DNA of 64,000 nucleotides, from the NCBI RefSeq assembly GCF_031195445.1, contig NZ_CP133480.1, positions 992,001-1,056,000 of the forward strand, given 5' to 3'. Shown here one piece after another: positions 41,351 to 51,505 of the stretch. Positions within the stretch are counted from its first letter, which is position 1. The number at the start of each line of letters is the position of its first letter. Origin of the DNA: Acuticoccus sp. MNP-M23. GTDB lineage: Bacteria; Pseudomonadota; Alphaproteobacteria; Rhizobiales; Amorphaceae. The notes under the pieces were generated by a model. The model had not been told where the DNA came from. It saw nothing but the letters and a program-made list of their open reading frames with translations, and ran no database searches. The position numbers and the translations under genes were made by a program.

Positions 41351-41426
41351 GGGGCCTTAGCTCAGCTGGGAGAGCGCCTGCATGGCATGCAGGAGGTCAG
41401 CGGTTCGATCCCGCTAGGCTCCACCA
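41351..41426 (+). tRNA. tRNA-Ala (GGC)
   Basis: 76 nt with encoded CCA. Acceptor GGGGCCT pairs with AGGCTCC (one G-T pair), the anticodon stem CCTGC/GCAGG encloses ATGGCAT (anticodon GGC), and the T-loop is GGTTCGATCC. Its last 17 bases are the left part of the duplicated attachment site, so the gene is intact and reads across the island junction. Confidence 0.96.
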
Positions 41427-41436
41427 CCCGTTTTCC
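41410..41436 (+). repeat. attL: left copy of the 27-bp island repeat
   Basis: Starts CCCGCTAGGCTCCACCA, covering the T-arm end, acceptor strand and CCA of tRNA-Ala, and runs ten bases into the flank (CCCGTTTTCC). An identical 27-bp copy lies at 51479-51505. Duplicated tRNA 3' ends are the usual footprint of tyrosine-integrase insertion. Confidence 0.9.
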
Positions 41437-41448
41437 ACCCGGAAAGAA

Positions 41449-41469
41449 TCAATGATTTTAAATCGTTGA
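41449..41469. repeat. Near-perfect AT-rich palindrome inside the island's left end
   Basis: TCAATGATTT-T-AAATCGTTGA: ten-base arms around a central T with one non-complementary pair, 12 bp inside attL. Placement fits an integrase arm site or an excisionase site, but a simple regulatory palindrome is equally possible. Confidence 0.35.
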
Positions 41470-41656
41470 CTCTGACCGAAGACCGGGTGCGTACTGAAAA
41501 GCACCAGATTGGTTTGGCTTTTTCGTCAGAGGATTTGCCTCTGCCGTGCCGACCGGTTCTGTTCTCCCTACGAAAATCCATGCTGCTTTGATCCGTGCCT
41601 TTTCGGCGTCTTGACCGCTTCGCAGCCCTCCCCCTTGTCAAAACTGAGGATGGCCC

Positions 41657-41839
41657 ATGAGCGACCATTTCCTCGTCGTGACGGGCGGCCCCGGTGCGGG
41701 CAAGACCAGCCTGATCACCGAGCTTGCCCGTCGCGGCTTTTACACAATCCCCGAATCCGGCCGAGCGATCATTCGCAAGGAGATCGCCAGCGGCGGGGGC
41801 GCCCTCCCTTGGGGGATCGCATGGCCTATGCCGAGCGAC
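41657..41839 (+). pseudogene. AAA-type ATPase fragment, frameshifted and cut by the IS3 element
   Basis: The first 61 codons read MSDHFLVVTGGPGAGKTSL with a Walker A motif (GGPGAGKTS) and PESGRAIIRKEIASGGGALPWG, the start of a known family of about 180-aa P-loop proteins of unknown role. Just after ALPWG the expected continuation GDRMAYAERL is in another frame (a run of G suggests a one-base insertion), and the gene then stops at the left inverted repeat of the IS3 element at 41840. No remainder is found on the other side of the insertion, so the gene is lost. Confidence 0.7.
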
Positions 41840-41902
41840 TGGCCTGCTGCCGGTTCCGTGGACACGAAGATAAGACCGTGACCATGGAACTGGAGAGTGG
41901 AT

Positions 41903-42193
41903 ATGACGAGACGGAAGTTCAGCCGCGAGTTGAAGATCGAGGCGGCGAAGCTGGTGACCGAGCGAGGCGTTTCGGTCGCCCAAGCGTGCCGTGATCTGGA
42001 CCTGGCAGAGAGCGTGCTGCGACGCAGGATGCGGGAATTGACGGCAGCGCCTGCTGCAGCCTTTCCCGGGAACGGGCAGATGGGAGCTGATCTGGCCGAG
42101 ATTGCAGCGCTGAAGAAAGAGGTCGCCCCGCTCCGGGCGGAGCGTGATATCCTCAAGAAAGCGGCGGCGTTTTTTGCGCGTGAGGCGACATGA
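41903..42193 (+). CDS. IS3-family transposase OrfA
   Basis: 96 aa. An N-terminal helix-turn-helix (MTRRKFSRELKIEAAKLVTERGVSVAQACRDLDL) of the HTH_Tnp_1 type is followed by a leucine-zipper-like segment (EIAALKKEVAPLRAERDILKKA). It binds the element ends. GGAGAG lies five bases before the ATG at 41903. It overlaps orfB by four bases (ATGA). It looks intact, but its partner is dead. Confidence 0.88.
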   Translation: MTRRKFSRELKIEAAKLVTERGVSVAQACRDLDLAESVLRRRMRELTAAPAAAFPGNGQMGADLAEIAALKKEVAPLRAERDILKKAAAFFAREAT

Positions 42194-42991
42194 GGTTCGC
42201 CTTCATTGCCAGACACCGACATATCTGGCCAGTGAGTTGGCTTTGTGAGGTGATGGAGGTCTCGCGTTCAGGCTTTCATGCTTGGCTCCATCGTCCGGTC
42301 AGCGACCGCACCTATGGCGCCCGTCGTGTCTGGCGCGATGTGCTCGAAGACGGGCTTGCCTGCGGGTTGCACCGGATCAAACGCCTGATGCGGTCGAACG
42401 CCATGAGGGCGCGGCCGAAGCGGCGCGGGAAGCCCAAGGACGATGGCGAACGGTCGATCATCGCCGACAAGATCCTCGACCGCGACTTCGAGGCCGACCG
42501 TCCAAACCAGAAGTGGCTGGCCGACTTTACCTAAATCTGGACCGCCCAAGGCTGGCTCTATGTCGGAGTTGTGCTGGACCTGTTTTCCAGGCGCGTTGTC
42601 CGCTGGTCCATGAAGGCTGATCGGGATGCCACGCTGGTCATGGATGCCCTGATGATGGCTGTCTGGCGCCGCGCCAAGGCCGACGCGCTGTTGCACCATT
42701 CAGATCAGGGATCGCAATATACCAGTGAGCAGTTCCAAACCCCTGCTGCTCGACAATGGCATCACCTGTTCGATGAGCCGAGCCGGCAACGTCTGGGACA
42801 ATTCGGCGATGGAGAGCTTCTTCTCGTCGTTGAAGACCGAACGGATAGCCCGCAAGGTCTACCGCACACGCGACGCGGCCCGTGCCGACGTGTTCGACTA
42901 CATTGAGCGCTTCTACAATCCGCGACGACGTCATTCGAAGCTGGGCTATACAAGCCCCATGGCGTTCGACGCCCGCGCTATGAAACCTTAA
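42190..42991 (+). pseudogene. IS3-family transposase OrfB, nonsense and frameshift mutations
   Basis: The three catalytic DDE positions can be found: Asp in WLADFT, Asp in HHSDQGSQY, Glu in SAMESFFSSLKTE. Two lesions split the frame: TAA at 42532-42534, where relatives have Tyr (ADFTYIW), and a frameshift near 42740 between SEQFQ and LLDNGITCSMSRAG. Downstream the frame resumes to YTSPMAFDARAMKP and a stop at 42991. The catalytic protein cannot be made, so the copy moves only if complemented. Confidence 0.88.
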
Positions 42992-43021
42992 CCCGGTGTC
43001 CACGGAACCGGCAGCAGGCCA

Positions 43022-43686
43022 GATCGCGAGCCCGTCGTATGTGGCGGTCGACGGCAGCCACATACGGGTATCGGCGGCGCAGGACCATTGCGTCGCGGCC
43101 GTCAGCGAGCTCCCCGGCGCGGATTGCGCCTCGCGCGCCGTGCGCGAATACCTGAGCGATCTCGACGAGGCCTCCTCGGATCTGGAAGCCGTGTGCCGTT
43201 CTGCGGTCAAGCGCGTGTTGTTGACCGACCCGGCTGCCGCCCTCAGCCGTAAGCACGGCAAGGCGCGGTTCGCCGATGGCATGAACGCGCTCGTTGACAC
43301 CGGATCAGGCGTCGTTCTGGGCGTCCAGGCGGCACCGGAGCGCTTTGCCGACGAACCCGAAGCCGCCCGCCGGATGGTCGAGCGGCTGCGCGTTCGGCAC
43401 AGTGCGGTCCCCGAGATCCTCACCGCGGACAAGGCCTACGGATTGGGCCCCTTCCTGGCGTGGATCGAGGAGCGCGGGATCGAGGCGCATGTTCCCATCA
43501 TTGATCGCACGCACCAGACCGCCGGACGGATGCGTGAAGCACAACGATGGTCTCCACCGCCTTCAGCTCCGCGGCCTGCGCGGCGCCGACGAGCAATTCG
43601 TGCTCGCGGCCACGGCGCAGAACCTGAAGCGGATGACGAGGCTCCTCGCCACAGGGGGACCGAGGATTGGAATGGTGGCAGCGTGA
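43022..43686 (+). pseudogene. IS1182-family transposase, C-terminal part with internal deletion
   Basis: Two blocks in different frames. The first, to about 43535, covers the central catalytic part of an IS1182 (DDE) transposase. The second, about 43545-43686, is its C-terminus and ends RIGMVAA. The segment between DRTHQTAGR and the C-terminal block, which normally holds about 100 residues with a Cys cluster, is missing and the frame shifts there. The N-terminus is gone. Non-functional. Confidence 0.82.
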
Positions 43687-43803
43687 ACCCGCCTGAGGAC
43701 TACCGGAAGAGCCCACGCCAACGCTCGCGCACCGAGGGGTGCGGTGCCGGTAGACCGGAACCGCCAATAAGCGGCCCGACCAACGGTGTTTTTCAACAGC
43801 CTC
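43022..43803 (+). mobile_element. IS1182-like element remnant, 3' part
   Basis: Begins abruptly at the IS3 right end inside a transposase (YVAVDGSHIRVSA) and runs to a terminal repeat TTCAACAGCCTC ending at 43803. The pieces LSRKHGKARFADGMNALVDTGSGVVLGVQA, EERGIEAHVPIIDRTHQTAGR and, in another frame, LRGADEQFVLAATAQNLKRM are IS1182-family segments. The 5' half is missing. Confidence 0.82.
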
Positions 43804-44133
43804 GTCCGTTTTCGAGACTAAGCATGTCCGCTTTTCGGTGCCGATTCAACCGATGCTCGTTTGAGAACAAAGCGGCTATTCGTTGCGGTGGTCTATCAGA
43901 TTTAGAGCCCGTTTGAGAATGGTGGGCGGCTCCGATTTTTCTTTCCGTTGGCCGGTGACCGGCTCGAAGGGGCGCGATTGTTCTGGCTGCGAACGACGTG
44001 GCCACGCCAAAATTACCGAGATTGGCGTTGCTCAAAAGGACTTTTGAGAGCACCAAATTTCGCATGGTTATTTGACCCCAAAAACCTTCTTAAAGAAATA
44101 TCTCTTCGCTCTTTGAATGCTTTAGTTTCCGAT
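43804..44133. other. Gene-free stretch between the IS1182 end and the sulfotransferase gene
   Basis: About 330 bp, shifting from normal GC to visibly AT-rich towards 44133. No reading frame has a recognisable product. Composition change marks the start of foreign cargo. Confidence 0.5.
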
Positions 44134-44790
44134 TTAATTTCTAGAATTCAAGAACACCCGCGTTTCTTCTTCGGGGAGATTTACCCCCATAGCGATCAAT
44201 AGTTCTCTGACCACCGAACGGCTATAGTTAACAACTTCAACATCGCCAAATTCGTCCCGATAAACTTTCTCCAATTCTTCATACTTGAGCAGCCATGTGT
44301 CGGACTCAACGTAGAGCGCGGAGTCTGGATCCGATGAAGGCATTCGACCAGGTTTCTTCAAAATCTGAGCGCGGTACGATGCCAAAAAGTCAATTTTGTT
44401 TCGGAGAGCAAGAAGTATCTTGAACTTGTGCTGATCCCCAAAAAGTAACTTCAGGGCGCGAACCTCTGAGGGTGTGCGCAACAAACTGAGTCCCTCACAA
44501 CTAAATATCAAACGATCGCACGAGCTTTCATTGATGAACTGTTGAACATCAGCCTTTACAACGCCATACGTCACATTATGCCGTGGATTAGCGGAGAGCC
44601 TGCCAAATGTCTCCACTCTTTTTCTCAAGGTTACTAGGTATAGTTCAATATGGTTGTTCTCATTAATGGACCCAAAGTAGTAGTCTTTGCCTTGACGTCG
44701 CAGCTCGATGCGGCTGGAACCCAGTATTGACTGAAGCGACGTCGAGCCCGTTTTGTGTGTTCCAATATGGATATGGATTTCTTTTTCCAT
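44134..44790 (-). CDS. Sulfotransferase-like P-loop protein
   Basis: 218 aa. The N-terminal HIHIGTHKTGSTSLQSIL (residues 6-23) has the PAPS 5'-phosphosulfate loop (GTHKTGSTS), and RLIFSCEGLSLL near 92 is the usual 3'-phosphate-binding Ser region. At 218 aa it is somewhat short. It would move a sulfate group from PAPS to a sugar, lipid or peptide. The gene is much richer in A and T than its surroundings and uses codons such as AAA, ATA and TTA freely, so it was acquired recently from another source. It is a single gene inside the composite segment. Confidence 0.72.
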   Translation of the reverse strand: MEKEIHIHIGTHKTGSTSLQSILGSSRIELRRQGKDYYFGSINENNHIELYLVTLRKRVETFGRLSANPRHNVTYGVVKADVQQFINESSCDRLIFSCEGLSLLRTPSEVRALKLLFGDQHKFKILLALRNKIDFLASYRAQILKKPGRMPSSDPDSALYVESDTWLLKYEELEKVYRDEFGDVEVVNYSRSVVRELLIAMGVNLPEEETRVFLNSRN

Positions 44791-44965
44791 TTATTTGCTC
44801 GCTCTTTGATGCGCGACTGTCGCAAAACGGAACGTTTTTGCGATGCCGGCCAGGGACCACGGAACGGTTCGTTTACGCGGGGCCCGACAGGGGTCACGAA
44901 ATGGCTGGAGCGATCAAAGTTCCTCCGCAAACCCTCGAATCCCGCGTTGGTGCCGCTTCGCGCCT

Positions 44966-47900
44966 CTATGCCTTCGGCTCGGCCGCCGTGTTATCGGGAG
45001 ATGCGTTGTCGATCGTGATCGTCAGCTCGCAGTGGAGGCCGTGTTCGTGGAAGCTGCGGGTGAGGTTGATCTCGCGGCGGGTCTCGATCGCCCGTAAGAG
45101 CTTCGAGCCGGCGCCCTCTGCCCCCACCGCGGCAATCGGGTTTGGCGACTGTTCATTCCAGACCATGCGCACGGTGCCGCCTTCGCTCTCCAACGCGATC
45201 TCGACCGTGCCGCCGTCCTGGCCGAGCGCGCCGTGCTTCACGGCGTTGGTCACGAGTTCGTGGATCAGCAGCGAAACGTCGATCGAGAGGTTGGGTGACA
45301 GCCTGGCCGTGGACTGGCCTTCGACCCGGATGTTTTTGCCGGTCGGGTCGTAGGGCTTCAATTGGGTCGCGATAAGCTCGCGGATGTCGACCTTGTCGTC
45401 GTCGCGGCGGAAGTTGAGGTCGTGGGACAGCGCAAGCGAGCGCAGGCGATGCGTGATCCGTTCGACAGTCTCGTCGCCGACGCCACCGTCGCGCAGGGAG
45501 AACCTCACCACCGACTGGACAACCGCGAGGGTATTCTTGACCCTGTGGCGCAACTCGTCGAGGAGCAGGCGTTTTTGCGTATCGGCTGCATCCCTGCGAA
45601 TGGTGGCGGCGAGAATGTTCGCAACCGTCTCCAGGAAGGAGATGTCGTCCTGGGTGAACTCGTAGAAGCCGCGGTCGTGAACACCGATCACGCCAAGCGG
45701 CTCGCGCGGTGATCCGACGATCACGCTCATCCCGCTGCGGATGTTCTCATCGGTCAGGATGGACGGGCCGCTGAAACGCGTCTCCGTGTTGAGATCCCGC
45801 ACGATGACCGGCTCCTTGACGTTGAGCGTATAGCCGGCCTGGCTGTCGGAGCCGATGTCGACCGTGCTGCCGATGGGTGCGCTGAAGGCGTAGGCGGCGG
45901 CAAGTTCCAGGCTCCCGTCGTCGCGCAGGATGAGAACCTTCGCAAAATCGGTCTGCAGGAGCGTGGCAAGCTCTTCCGGCAACAACTCGATCATCTCGCG
46001 CGCGGAAAGCCCCGCGACGCCGCGCCGGCCGAGGCGGGCGACAAATTCGTGCTCTTCCGCACGGCGTTCCGACAGATGACGCGCGTGGGTGAGCGGCGTG
46101 ATGTCGACAAATGTCGCCACCGTCCCCTCGATCACGTTGGCCGCCGAACGGTAAGGCAGGATGCGCATCATGAAGGTGCTCGATCCGTCGCGCGCCGTCA
46201 CCTCCCGTTCGATGGGCTTCAGGTTCTCCAGCACCTGCGCAACATCGGACTCCATGTCGATGTCCACCACCCGGGTGGAGATGTCGTCGATGCGGCGTCC
46301 GAGGTCCGTCTCGATAAGGTTGAAGACCTGTCGCGCCACGGGCGTGAAGCGGCGCACACGGCCATCGGCATCGAGGAACAGTGTCGCGATCTCGGTGCTG
46401 GAGAGAAAGTTGGTCAGGTCCGCATTGGTACGGCTCAGTTCCTCCACCTTGTTGATGAGCTCGGCGTTCACCGTTTCCAGCTCTTCGTTGATGGACTGCA
46501 GCTCCTCCTTGGAGGTCTCCAGTTCTTCGTTGGAGCTTTGCAGCTCCTCGTTCATGCTCATCAGCTCTTCGTTGGCCGACTGCAGCTCTTCGTTGGAGGA
46601 TTCCAGCTCCTCCGTGGTGGTCTGGAGAAGCTCCCGCGTTGCCTTGAGCTCCACCTCCAGCGCATTGATACCGAGATCCCCGTCGCCCTCGGTCCCGTCG
46701 CCGTCCAGCTCTGCCCGCACCGTGCCGAGATCGTGGAATGCGATGAGGAAATGCTGCTGGCTGCCCTCCAGCTCCAGCGGCCTGCCAATGATGCGCACGA
46801 TCGCCGTCGTCTCACCTTGCCGGAAGGTGACCGGATCGCGAACCACCGGCTTGGCGTCCGTGGTCAGGCGGTGCCACAGCGAGCGCACCTCCATGCGCAG
46901 GTCCGGGTGCAGGAGGTTGAAGAAGTCGAGCGAGGCCTGGCCCTGCACCATTTTGAGGTAGGTGCCGATGGCACCGCCCGAGAAAATCAGCTCCCGGTTG
47001 ACATCCACCACCGCGAAGGCGGGGCTGAGGTCGGCCAGCACCACCGTCTGCGCCGCTTTGACGTAAGCGGCAATACCGCCTCGCGTGCCCTTGGGAGCGG
47101 CGGCGCGGCTTTGAGAGGAGGCCGCAAGGCCCATCAGGGGAAACCGCGGCTGCGTATTGGGCACGCTCGGCCGCCTGCGGAACAACCGCCAACGCTGGTT
47201 GATGGTGTCGAACAGCGCTTCATGCCCGGTGACGCTCTCGGAGGGTCCAAGGAGCAGGCATCCGTCCGGCTGCAGCGCGTAATGGAAGATCGGCAGGACG
47301 CGCTCCTGCATCTCCGGCTTCAGGTAGATGAGGACGTTGCGGCAGGACAGGAGGTCGAGCCTTGAAAAGGGCGGGTCCTTGACGAGGCTCTGGGTGGAGA
47401 AGATGCACATTTCGCGGATTTCTTCCGCAATCTGATACTCTTGGTGGTTCTTGCGGAAGTAGCGCCGGAGATAGCGCTGCGGCACGTAGGCCTCGATGGG
47501 CTCCGGGTAGATCGCGCGCCGGGCGGTGGCGAGGGCGCCCTCGTCGATGTCGGTCGCGAAGATCTGGATGCGCGGCGGGTTCGGCAATACGCCGGTCTTC
47601 TCCGACAGGAGGATCGCCAGCGAGTAGGCCTCCTCCCCCGTGGCGCACCCGGCGACCCAGACGCGCACCGGCTCGCCCGGCTGCTTGCGGGCGAGAATTT
47701 CGTCGACCGCGGTCTCCAGCGCCTCGAATGCGTCCGGGTCGCGAAAGAACGCGGTCACAGAGATCAGCAGTTCGCGGAAGAGGTGGCCGGCCTCGTCGCG
47801 GTCGTCGCGCAGGCGGTCGGCGTAGTCTGACAGGTTCTCGATGGACAGAACCTGCATCCGGCGCTGCACCCGCCGGCGCATCGTCGGCTCCTTGTAGTGG

Positions 47901-48598
47901 CGGAAGTCGTGCCCTGTCGCGAGCTTGAGGTGCTGGCAGATGCGTCCGATCTGGCGTTCCGCCTCGGCGGCTTCGGTCCGGTCCACGGGGCCGCCGGAGA
48001 CGAGTTGCGCAAGGTAGGTCTTGATCGCGGCCGGGATTTCACCTGGCGGCAAGACCTTGTCGATCAGCCCGGTGGCGATGGCGTTGCGCGGCATGGAATC
48101 GTAGGCGGCCGATTCCGGCTCCTGCGCGATCAGGAAGCCGCCGGTTTCCTTGATGAGCCTCGCGCCCTGGGTCCCGTCGCTACCCGTGCCCGACAGGATG
48201 ATCGCCACCATGTCCTCGCCGCGTTCCGTCGCCAGGGAGCGGAAGAACGTGTCGATCGGCGTGCGCACCGCACGCGGCGGTGCCGGGCGTTCGACCTTGA
48301 ATGCACCGTGCTCGACGGTGAGCGTGGCGTCTTCCGGGATCACCACGATGGTGCCTGCGGCCGGGATCATGCCGTCCTGCGCCACCGTCACCGGCAGTTC
48401 GGTGGAGCGGCTGAGAAGCTCGGTCAGAAGGCTCTTGTGAGTCGGATCGAGGTGCTGGACGACGACGAAGCAGGCCCGCGTGTCGGTCGAGAGCGCGCCG
48501 AACATGGTGCGCAGCGCGTCAAGCCCGCCAGCAGACGCGCCAATTCCGACCAGCGGCACAGTGCTGGTGCGCGGTTCTGGTGCCGTCACTTGATCCAT
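44966..48598 (-). CDS. CheB-CheR-PAS-GAF HWE histidine kinase fusion
   Basis: 1210 aa, cytoplasmic, no membrane segment. In order: CheB methylesterase (GIGASAGGLDAL, VQHLDPTH, LSGTGSDG hold the Ser-His-Asp triad) to about 200; CheR methyltransferase (MRRRVQRRM, AGCATGEEAYSLAI, LLSCRNVLIYL) to about 480; a PAS-like region; a coiled coil of repeated EELxSxNEEL units; a PAS domain (FLDADGRVRRFTPVA); a GAF domain (SREPLGVIGVHDRG); and an HWE kinase (ELRHRVKNTLAVVQ with the phospho-His, LIHELVTNAVKHGAL, VWNEQ as the WxE motif). There is no receiver in the protein; the REC protein encoded nearby is the likely partner. The signal is unknown. ATG 48598. Confidence 0.9.
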   Translation of the reverse strand: MDQVTAPEPRTSTVPLVGIGASAGGLDALRTMFGALSTDTRACFVVVQHLDPTHKSLLTELLSRSTELPVTVAQDGMIPAAGTIVVIPEDATLTVEHGAFKVERPAPPRAVRTPIDTFFRSLATERGEDMVAIILSGTGSDGTQGARLIKETGGFLIAQEPESAAYDSMPRNAIATGLIDKVLPPGEIPAAIKTYLAQLVSGGPVDRTEAAEAERQIGRICQHLKLATGHDFRHYKEPTMRRRVQRRMQVLSIENLSDYADRLRDDRDEAGHLFRELLISVTAFFRDPDAFEALETAVDEILARKQPGEPVRVWVAGCATGEEAYSLAILLSEKTGVLPNPPRIQIFATDIDEGALATARRAIYPEPIEAYVPQRYLRRYFRKNHQEYQIAEEIREMCIFSTQSLVKDPPFSRLDLLSCRNVLIYLKPEMQERVLPIFHYALQPDGCLLLGPSESVTGHEALFDTINQRWRLFRRRPSVPNTQPRFPLMGLAASSQSRAAAPKGTRGGIAAYVKAAQTVVLADLSPAFAVVDVNRELIFSGGAIGTYLKMVQGQASLDFFNLLHPDLRMEVRSLWHRLTTDAKPVVRDPVTFRQGETTAIVRIIGRPLELEGSQQHFLIAFHDLGTVRAELDGDGTEGDGDLGINALEVELKATRELLQTTTEELESSNEELQSANEELMSMNEELQSSNEELETSKEELQSINEELETVNAELINKVEELSRTNADLTNFLSSTEIATLFLDADGRVRRFTPVARQVFNLIETDLGRRIDDISTRVVDIDMESDVAQVLENLKPIEREVTARDGSSTFMMRILPYRSAANVIEGTVATFVDITPLTHARHLSERRAEEHEFVARLGRRGVAGLSAREMIELLPEELATLLQTDFAKVLILRDDGSLELAAAYAFSAPIGSTVDIGSDSQAGYTLNVKEPVIVRDLNTETRFSGPSILTDENIRSGMSVIVGSPREPLGVIGVHDRGFYEFTQDDISFLETVANILAATIRRDAADTQKRLLLDELRHRVKNTLAVVQSVVRFSLRDGGVGDETVERITHRLRSLALSHDLNFRRDDDKVDIRELIATQLKPYDPTGKNIRVEGQSTARLSPNLSIDVSLLIHELVTNAVKHGALGQDGGTVEIALESEGGTVRMVWNEQSPNPIAAVGAEGAGSKLLRAIETRREINLTRSFHEHGLHCELTITIDNASPDNTAAEPKA

Positions 48599-48710
48599 TT
48601 TGAACGATCTATGGCCTGAGGGCGTTTCAACCAGAGTAAACCAAGAGCGCAGCGCTCCGTAACCCCACACGTCAGCGCTTTGAGCCATCTTCAGGGATTG
48701 CCAGGCACCG

Positions 48711-49727
48711 ATGGAGTATATGGCCCAGCAACTGGATTGGCGGAACAGAAATATCGTCGTAATCGGCGGGTCGGCCGGTTCGCTGGACGCATTGTCGCAG
48801 ATCGTGCGCCACCTTCCGGGCGATTTCCCGGCAGCGGTGCTGTTCGTCCAGCACCTGCCGGCGACCCACACCTCCGCGCTTCCAGACATCCTTGCCCAAC
48901 GCACTGCCCTCACAGTGCGCGAGGCGACCGACGGCGCGTCACTCACGGCCGGAACCCTGTCCACGTGCGTGCCCGATTACCATCTCGTGCTCAGCGAAGC
49001 GAACATGCACCTCACCAGGGGGCCGCGCGAGAACCACTCGCGCCCGGCGATTGACACCCTGTTCCGCTCAGCGGCGCGGCACTATCGCGGCCGCGTCGTC
49101 GCGGTGCTGCTCAGCGGCTACCTGTCGGACGGGCTTGCGGGCCTGTCTGCCGTGCGCCGGTGTGGCGGCCTCACCGTGGTGCAGGACCCCGCGGACGCCA
49201 GCGTCGCCGACATGCCGCAGAACGCACTCGACCGCCATGAGGCGGACTTTGTCGCGGACGCGCGGCGCATCGGCGATCTCTTGCGCGAAATCGTCACCCA
49301 GCCGGCGCCGAGTGATCCCGATGTGCCGGACGACGTGATCCTCGAAACCGAAATGACCGTTGGCAGACGCATGACCATACGATCAGAAGACCGCATCGGC
49401 GAGCTCACCCCCTTCGCCTGCCCGGACTGCAGCGGCAACCTGTGGCGCGTCCACGACGACGTGTTGCGGTTTCGCTGCCATGTGGGCCACGCCTACACCG
49501 CGGCCGACTTTGCCGCCGCCGAACAGGAAAAGCTTGAAGAGGCGCTGTGGACCGCGTTGCGGGGCCTGCGCGAGCGCGCCGAACTCCTGGCCACCATGGC
49601 GTCCGACGCCAGGGCCGCAAAGCGCAGCGCCAGCGCCGACCGCTTTGCGGCCAACGCCAGCGAGATCGAGGAGCAGGCCAACAGGCTCCAGGACTTCATC
49701 ATGACGCGGACGAGCGTTTATGCGTGA
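48711..49727 (+). CDS. Stand-alone CheB-like methylesterase with zinc-ribbon tail
   Basis: 338 aa. A CheB domain without receiver: Ser in VIGGSAGSLDAL (near 19-30), His in VQHLPATHTS, Asp in LLSGYLSDGLAG. A linker is followed by CPDCSGNLWRVHDDVLRFRCHVGHAYT, a four-Cys/His ribbon, and a helical C-terminus. CheB removes methyl groups from receptor glutamates; without chemoreceptors nearby, the target is uncertain. Divergent from the kinase fusion (112 bp) and overlapping the response regulator gene by 8 bp, so co-expressed. An internal ATG at 48720 is a poorer start. Confidence 0.87.
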   Translation: MEYMAQQLDWRNRNIVVIGGSAGSLDALSQIVRHLPGDFPAAVLFVQHLPATHTSALPDILAQRTALTVREATDGASLTAGTLSTCVPDYHLVLSEANMHLTRGPRENHSRPAIDTLFRSAARHYRGRVVAVLLSGYLSDGLAGLSAVRRCGGLTVVQDPADASVADMPQNALDRHEADFVADARRIGDLLREIVTQPAPSDPDVPDDVILETEMTVGRRMTIRSEDRIGELTPFACPDCSGNLWRVHDDVLRFRCHVGHAYTAADFAAAEQEKLEEALWTALRGLRERAELLATMASDARAAKRSASADRFAANASEIEEQANRLQDFIMTRTSVYA

Positions 49728-50115
49728 TGGCGGCGCGGGCATCCCGCCGCGTGTTCTGGTGGTGGAAGACAACACGCTGATCGCCATGGAGCTGACGTTA
49801 ATTCTGGAGGAGGCGGGCTACCTTCCGGTGGGGCCGGCGAGCGACGCTGCGACCGCGCTCTCCCTCATCGACAAATCGGCACCCCACTGCGCCGTGCTCG
49901 ACATCAACCTCGGCCCGGCCCTGACCTCCGCCCCCATCGCGCGGCGCCTCAACGCCCTTGCGATCCCGTTCGTCTACCTGTCAGGCTACACCGAGACGTA
50001 CAGCCCGGACGAGCTGCCCGCTGGAACGATCCTGCCCAAGCCCGTTGAACCCGACACGCTTGCGGCCGCCCTCGCCGCCCTCACCGAAGCCACCTCCGAG
50101 TCCGAATGCCCCTAG
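49720..50115 (+). CDS. Single-domain response regulator
   Basis: 131 aa, one receiver domain. VLVVEDN (acidic pair), Asp in CAVLDINLG, Ser/Thr in FVYLSGYTE, Lys in ILPKPVEP. No output domain. Receivers of this kind pair with HWE kinases and act as phosphate sinks or connectors. The start overlaps the CheB-like gene by 8 bp. Confidence 0.87.
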   Translation: MRDGGAGIPPRVLVVEDNTLIAMELTLILEEAGYLPVGPASDAATALSLIDKSAPHCAVLDINLGPALTSAPIARRLNALAIPFVYLSGYTETYSPDELPAGTILPKPVEPDTLAAALAALTEATSESECP

Positions 50116-50602
50116 AGTAGGATTCTGCAGAAACTCCCACGCAGCACCGAAAAAAATGGAAGCGCTGGCTCATCCTCGGGGGCGGCGGATTCCGCGCTGA
50201 CGGACTCCAGCTGAAGCGGATTGCGTTTTTGCCTTAACTGGACGAACGGCAGGGGCAGGTCAGTTGGCCAGGGCCACCAGATGCTGCTCCGCCTGCGGCG
50301 TAATCGATTTAGTGACCACGTTCATAACCCGCCCCGCAGGAACCCTTCTTGTTCGCATGAGCATTTCACGTAAATCGCAAATAATGCGATGATGACCAAC
50401 AACTTGAATATGACTGACAATCATTCAAGGGCCGCATTCTCAGCTCTAACCAATATTTCGCGCCTGTGAAATGAAGTGTTTTATTGCAGTGTTGATATAT
50501 TGATGGGGTTCTCTAGCCGCGTCTAACAACCGGTTTCGAGCCCTTCAGATGGCAGCTTTGCGTCTCTGCCATTGCGTGTGGGTCTGGATCTCGAAAATAC
50601 TT
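50116..50602. other. Gene-free, AT-richer stretch before the right IS1182 copy
   Basis: About 490 bp with no supportable gene. 50360-50510 is clearly AT-rich (for example TTATTGCAGTGTTGATATATTG) and resembles decayed foreign DNA. No terminator with a T run is evident after the response regulator. Confidence 0.5.
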
Positions 50603-50930
50603 GAGGCTGTTGAACAACATCGTCGGACGATGGCCGCCGGGCTCCTCATCTGGATCGATGCTCCGCCGGTAAGCGAAAACGGAGCAACGCAATGATGGAT
50701 CGGAAGATCGGGCAAGCATCACTGTTCTACGAGTTCAATTTGGAGGATCGGGTGCCGGCCGGCCATCTCATTCGAAGGGTCGATGCGGTTCTCGACCTCA
50801 GCTCCAGCTTCGCACCACCGCATCAACGCCGCTATGGTCCGCTCGTCGTCCGCCCGGGTGCGCGCCTTCACCTGACGCTCTGCGAGGAATTGTGGGTGGT
50901 GAAGAAGGATCGGTGTCGCCATACCGCGCG
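50603..50930 (+). mobile_element. IS1182-like element remnant, 5' part
   Basis: Starts with the terminal repeat GAGGCTGTTGAACAAC at 50603, which is the inverted counterpart of the end at 43803 (22 of the first 27 bases agree). An AGCGAAAAC-GGAG leader and the first codons of an IS1182 transposase follow. The element breaks off near 50930. Same orientation as the left remnant. Confidence 0.8.
50692..50930 (+). pseudogene. IS1182-family transposase, N-terminal fragment
   Basis: MMDRKIGQASLFYEFNLEDRVPAGHLIRRVDAVLDLS is the standard start of IS1182-type transposases. After about residue 40 the sequence jumps to a degraded version of the SERRLCEE region (LHLTLCEELW) and loses similarity, so there is an internal deletion. 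GGAG lies seven bases before the ATG. Non-functional. Confidence 0.78.
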
Positions 50931-51017
50931 CGATGCGGACAAACTACCAGCATTGCGAGAACGCACAGTGTCACAGCGAGGCATCATTTCGCCACTCGGA
51001 TGGTAGTACTCTCCTAC

Positions 51018-51402
51018 CTATCCACCAAGGAGTTGATCCGCGATGATGTCGATATCGTCGATGGCCTTCTCGTGCTCCTCATCCGTCTGTGCGGATCGAA
51101 GCGCCTCGCGAAGGTCCAAGGCAAGCGCCAAAATAGGGTCTTCGATACCCCCCGTCCGCTCTTTGTTGATCCGGTCTCTTAGCTCGGCAATCACTCGCCA
51201 CTTGAGCCGGTTCGCAACGGTAAGGCTGTCCGTACTCAGGGACTGCTTCAGGTTTGTCGGAAGCCTTGTCGTGAAGCTCGCGGGGGACGGGGACCACAAC
51301 ACGCCACTTGGCGCCATCGCGTTCGAGGAATCCTTTATCGTTATCGAAAGATCGAGCGATGTTAGCCCAACCAAAACTCAAGCAGCGTAACCAGTAACGC
51401 AC
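51018..51402 (-). pseudogene. Tyrosine recombinase (phage-type integrase) N-terminal remnant
   Basis: The first frame from 51402 reads SFDNDKGFLERDGAKWRVVVPVPRELHDK, and after a shift near 51260 the other frame continues TNLKQSLSTDSLTVANRLKWRVIAELRDRI. Together they make the SAM-like/arm-binding N-terminus of integrases of the DUF6538 or phage-integrase type. The frame stops at 51018 and the catalytic Arg-His-Tyr domain is absent, replaced by the IS1182 remnant. It lies 77 bp from attR and reads into the island, the normal place for the island integrase. Confidence 0.72.
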
Positions 51403-51478
51403 CCACTTTGCGCATCCAGCGCCGGAAAAAACGAGAGATTACAGATATGTATGGAACTTTCAGACAGGTAAAAGAGGC

Positions 51479-51505
51479 CCCGCTAGGCTCCACCACCCGT
51501 TTTCC
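51479..51505 (+). repeat. attR: right copy of the 27-bp island repeat
   Basis: Identical over 27 bases to 41410-41436, the 3' end of tRNA-Ala plus ten flanking bases. There is no tRNA body before it, so this is the displaced end created by integration. Confidence 0.9.

Follow-up and report, generated by a model that had tools for sequence, protein, structure and literature searches.

The window analysed here is a stretch of 64,000 nucleotides from Acuticoccus sp. MNP-M23 (genome G000 in the sample used below). A tRNA-Ala(GGC) gene lies in its right-hand part, and the final 17 nt of this gene together with the 10 bp beyond it form the 27-mer CCCGCTAGGCTCCACCACCCGTTTTCC, which begins at tRNA position 60 and recurs exactly, in direct orientation, 10,069 bp downstream (start to start). 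The features between and including the two copies, termed attL and attR, are listed in Table 1.

Table 1. Features of the tRNA-Ala(GGC) locus, in positions of the window.
Feature	Position	Strand	Basis or remark
tRNA-Ala(GGC), integration target	41351..41426	+	ARAGORN
attL	41410..41436	+	last 17 nt of tRNA gene + 10 bp
AAA_28 ATPase gene, 5' piece, cut by IS3	41658..41838	+	Pfam AAA_28, E 1.1e-12
IS3-family insertion sequence, interrupted orfB	41839..43026	+	36-nt terminal inverted repeats (89%)
IS1182, C-terminal part and right end	43027..43814	+	aligned to the copy on G000:C4
218-aa AT-rich ORF	44134..44790	-	sulfotransferase-like motif only
CheB-CheR-PAS-GAF-HWE histidine kinase fusion, 1211 aa	44966..48601	-	domain search
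Second CheB-type methylesterase, stand-alone	48711..49727	+	domain search
Single-domain response regulator	49720..50115	+	domain search
IS1182, left end and N-terminal part	50603..51006	+	orientation as piece at 43027
DUF6538 tyrosine integrase N-terminal relic	51021..51402	-	~106 aa, one frameshift, without catalytic domain
attR	51479..51505	+	second 27-bp repeat copy

The perfect recurrence, already pointed out in a preliminary description of this locus, was confirmed. The two copies agree at 27/27 positions and their identity ends abruptly on either side; no third copy was found within the window, and two matches to the repeat occurred in 0/100 shuffles, even with 3 mismatches allowed. Genome-wide, one further near-copy was detected (2 mismatches; G000:C1:465030-465056, minus strand), at a site with no tRNA-Ala. 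Among the 396 other genomes in a sample of 397 from the order, no site with up to 2 mismatches was present, and neither the exact att pattern nor the exact tRNA pattern had a match in viral contigs. tRNA sequences are conserved and partial copies of them occur, which might allow a repeat of this kind to arise by chance or as a vestigial tRNA duplication; that origin is hardly credible here, as it is refuted by the shuffles, by an identity that includes 10 bp beyond the gene, by the lack of similar sites in the other genomes and by the same geometry in six intact elements described below.

The far boundary of the segment is thus marked by a direct repeat of the tRNA 3' end, and an integrase remnant stands beside it, as in tRNA-integrated islands. 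DUF6538 is an N-terminal domain in one class of tyrosine recombinases. The integrase fragment that had been placed 77 bp from the right copy proved real: its ORF starts at this distance, and with one frameshift bridged the relic scores 30.5 bits on Pfam DUF6538 (cut-off 27). Homology to integrases covers 51021-51339 on the minus strand, 140 bp from the right repeat. The relic aligns over its whole length with intact integrases, and ends after ~106 aa without an intact catalytic domain. It had no match in PHROGs, and DUF6538 was unmentioned in the literature searched. Most of the integrase has been lost, and excision of the island would require a related integrase supplied in trans.

The broken ATPase and the insertion sequences named earlier were likewise recovered. 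The AAA_28 gene is cut by the IS3-family element, at which no target duplication was evident. Both IS1182 pieces align to a single element on contig C4 of the same genome, relative to which the left-hand piece has a ~300-bp internal deletion. They do not constitute the two complete flanking copies of a composite transposon, both being partial with their inner ends kept. The adjacent 218-aa ORF had been called an AT-rich sulfotransferase; the AT-richness stands (G+C of 0.485 around the ORF). No match was found in Pfam, NCBIfam or PHROGs, and the start of the predicted protein, HIGTHKTGSTSLQ, is only suggestive as a sulfotransferase sign. Phage structural and replication genes, by which a prophage would be recognized, were absent among the scanned ORFs.

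The chemotaxis-like sensor module was confirmed by its domains. Its composition bears on the claim that everything between the repeats is accessory, for which a k-mer comparison inside and outside the island had been proposed. Tetranucleotide composition is strongly deviant at 42.5-46.5 kb and around 49.5-51.5 kb, and both island ends and the region around 43-46 kb are atypical; over most of 46.0-50.5 kb, however, in the kinase/CheB/regulator segment, it is near that of the host, and it is host-like from 51.5 kb onward. Furthermore, kinases 63-64% identical to that of the window occur at other loci in two congeners (G004 and G007), beside a similar single-domain regulator. Because of the near-host composition and these related kinases elsewhere, the segment is better matched by a genus-typical signalling module, which may have become enclosed in the island, than by foreign cargo. 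With its HWE kinase beside a regulator, it could be likened to alphaproteobacterial HWE/HisKA2 kinase and single-domain regulator modules of the general stress response type, from which it differs in having CheB and CheR fused to the kinase and an extra CheB. A role of HWE/HisKA2 kinases in the general stress response of alphaproteobacteria is described in an excerpt of PMC12148442, and the hub of this response can be a single-domain regulator, according to an excerpt of PMC5964349.

The relic was used as a query against the 397 genomes of the order. Full-length integrases of ~470-540 aa were found in other families of the order; intact homologues of 470-511 aa, 41-48% identical over the relic stretch, were present in 8 other genomes. 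The surrounding element was readable end to end in six of them, from four families (G240, G272, G332, G094, G106 and G136). In all six, the tRNA-Ala is directed into the element, an inward-reading integrase occupies the opposite end, and a perfect 18-26-bp repeat begins at tRNA position 59-60; the anticodon is GGC in three cases and CGC in three. The integrase match begins 128-137 bp inside the far repeat, as compared with 140 bp in the window, and the lengths of the elements (8.0, 8.4, 13.4, 13.7, 17.5 and 20.0 kb) bracket the 10.1 kb of the window island. The latter thus carries the same kind of integrase, reading inward at the distal end, at a closely similar distance from a repeat that begins at position 60. 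As G240/G272 and G106/G136 are related pairs, the six elements amount to approximately four independent cases. Inspection by eye indicated a reverse-complement tRNA-Ala 3' end upstream of several full-length integrases, an apparent tRNA-Ser end upstream of two more distant ones, and another tRNA end in G214.

In gene content, the six elements have in common a serine recombinase gene, whose resolvase domain was confirmed in the G332 copy. Type I restriction-modification genes occur in the G240 and G272 elements, with HsdM confirmed for G240. Four of the six also share a 430-490-aa protein, the G332 copy of which had no match in Pfam, NCBIfam or PDB. The G332 integrase had no match in phage records. 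The AAA_28 fragment was considered as a hallmark of the elements and rejected, being absent from all six. In contrast to these elements, with their full-length integrases bearing catalytic motifs, the window island has no counterpart of the serine resolvase gene among its ORFs, and lacks the 430-490-aa protein and the restriction-modification genes as well. Since the resolvase and other common genes are missing here, kinship rests on the integrase N-terminus and the att geometry, and the absence of the resolvase gene is the reason for calling the island a decayed relative rather than a functional member. In more general terms, it resembles tRNA-targeting tyrosine-integrase islands in its tRNA 3'-end target, its direct repeats, the regenerated intact tRNA and the position of the integrase by one end; it differs from them in that the integrase is cut down and no conjugation, resolvase or phage genes are left.

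We therefore consider it very probable that the segment 41437-51505 (10,069 bp, one att copy included) is a decayed integrative element, inserted into the 3' end of tRNA-Ala(GGC) by a DUF6538-type tyrosine recombinase. Site-specific integration, as initially proposed, is borne out by the finding that intact integrases related to the relic occupy tRNA-Ala elements laid out in the same way. On the sequence evidence, the island appears to be a decayed relative of the six intact elements, rearranged by IS3 and IS1182. The tRNA would have stayed intact because attP recombined with an attB of the same sequence. Insertions of IS3 and IS1182, along with deletions, would later have eliminated the genes proper to the element and the greater part of its integrase, and a sensor kinase/CheB/regulator module now stands at the centre, flanked by two IS1182 remnants. 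About a quarter of the segment consists of IS3 and IS1182 pieces, which bound the cargo, as might be expected had insertion sequences alone built it, with a tRNA 3'-end fragment copied to 51479 by recombination and no site-specific integration. Such an assembly is very unlikely, given that the repeat shares its starting point in the tRNA with those of the six intact elements and that the integrase relic agrees with them in spacing and direction. The integrative element at this locus is thereby linked to a set of intact elements whose integrases repeatedly use tRNA-Ala 3' ends, and this usage provides a rule for finding more of them.

The upstream block aroA-FYDLN-tRNA-Ala is kept in nine genus or family relatives, with cmk and rpsA also in place where the contig allows (gene order rpsA-cmk-aroA-FYDLN-tRNA-Ala), while the downstream side varies. 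The genes from 41.4 to 51.5 kb are not conserved between tRNA-Ala and the DeoR gene: in 8/8 relatives with readable downstream sequence, other genes follow the tRNA and DeoR is not among them (G001 was left out of this count, its contig ending ~250 bp past the tRNA). The congeners are distant from G000, about 66-70% identical in AroA/Cmk; an AroA-Cmk tree recovers the genus as a single clade in which G000 branches near the base. In three congeners (G006, G005 and G004), DUF6538 or integrase relics lie directly after tRNA-Ala, that of G004 being a short conserved stretch only. Because these genomes bear other integrase relics there, the tRNA-Ala site is an integration hotspot.

The right flank presents a different picture. 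The segment 53.08-61.8 kb is a conserved block in G004, G006 and G007, and partly in G005, at loci far from tRNA-Ala; DeoR and the nudix gene are outside this block. A joined-flank search for an empty site in 60 relatives recovered both halves in G000 alone, and no true empty site occurred among the sampled relatives, none of which has both flanks together. As the right flank sits elsewhere, without DeoR and nudix, these relatives do not reveal the original empty site, and the right outer limit is uncertain. The 27-bp repeat may accordingly delimit one layer of a larger nested accessory region, in which the foreign segment extends beyond 51505 to take in DeoR and the nudix gene at the least, and a separate rearrangement placed the block starting at 53.08 kb beside tRNA-Ala. 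The absence of DeoR and nudix from the block in G004, G006 and G007, its remoteness from tRNA-Ala in congeners and further integrase matches 24-38 kb to the right speak for this extension; the lack of additional att copies up to 40 kb beyond the window and the host-like composition from 51.5 kb on speak against it, and we regard it as plausible but somewhat improbable. It concerns the outer limit and is compatible with the integrative element at tRNA-Ala. One of the matches farther right on the same chromosome is a further degraded DUF6538 relic with an internal stop (G000:C1:1081755-1081859), ~38 kb right of attR. A 48-kb island bounded by a genus-type tRNA end near this relic was considered and rejected, no genus-type repeat being found there.

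The tRNA gene itself is intact, as had been stated, but is not the version that congeners carry at the locus. A 76-nt tRNA-Ala(GGC) is identical in seven congeners, a Prosthecomicrobium and two Rhizobiaceae genomes at this position, and the G000 gene differs from the type common to the 7/7 congeners at 11/76 positions. Six of the 11 differences constitute three compensating stem pairs (7-66, 28-42 and 31-39), and others are in the T arm. In contrast, resemblance to several congeners can still be recognised immediately upstream, and the tRNA-Val and tRNA-Phe of G000, used as controls, each match those of two congeners at 100% identity. At 76/76 positions the G000 tRNA-Ala(GGC) gene agrees with tRNA-Ala genes on Ruegeria, Tritonibacter and Novosphingobium replicons; a GGC anticodon was verified in those of Ruegeria and Novosphingobium. 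No second tRNA-Ala(GGC) gene was found in G000. Intragenomic conversion by tRNA-Ala(TGC) was rejected, the genus TGC gene (67/76) not being a sufficient donor.

Both att copies, as well as the 465-kb near-copy, carry the foreign tRNA type. Judging from these alignments, the tRNA-Ala(GGC) gene seems to have been swapped before the island was inserted, since in each att copy the sequence on either side of the crossover region is of the G000 type. Possible routes are short-segment transfer with recombination, an earlier element, or convergence. In one version, which we consider unlikely, an earlier integrative element of this kind replaced the entire body of the host's only detected tRNA-Ala(GGC) gene, and not its 3' end alone, by a foreign version; the 3' end thus acquired, with the adjoining 10 bp, was afterwards used as attB by the present island. 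The island is ordinary as a kind; the tRNA swap is the part worth follow-up. That an essential tRNA gene has apparently been swapped where the locus is otherwise conserved, and before the insertion, raises the question of whether entire host tRNA genes are exchanged by mobile elements.

Several minor observations were made at other sites. The idea that the native downstream DNA had been moved by an inversion, with the tRNA and the 465-kb near-copy as its ends, was rejected, no DNA homology being found. The near-copy lies 212 bp inside the end of a small island in tRNA-Phe(GAA) (G000:C1:461561-465324; L113 6561-10324). In this island, a 490-aa ORF with a DUF6538 domain adjoins the tRNA, and the last 17 nt of the gene plus 40 bp are repeated, at 89% identity, at 465268-465324. 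In G009 (L111), a 25-bp perfect repeat of the stretch from tRNA position 71 to 19 bp past the gene is located ~140 bp after the tRNA-Ala end.
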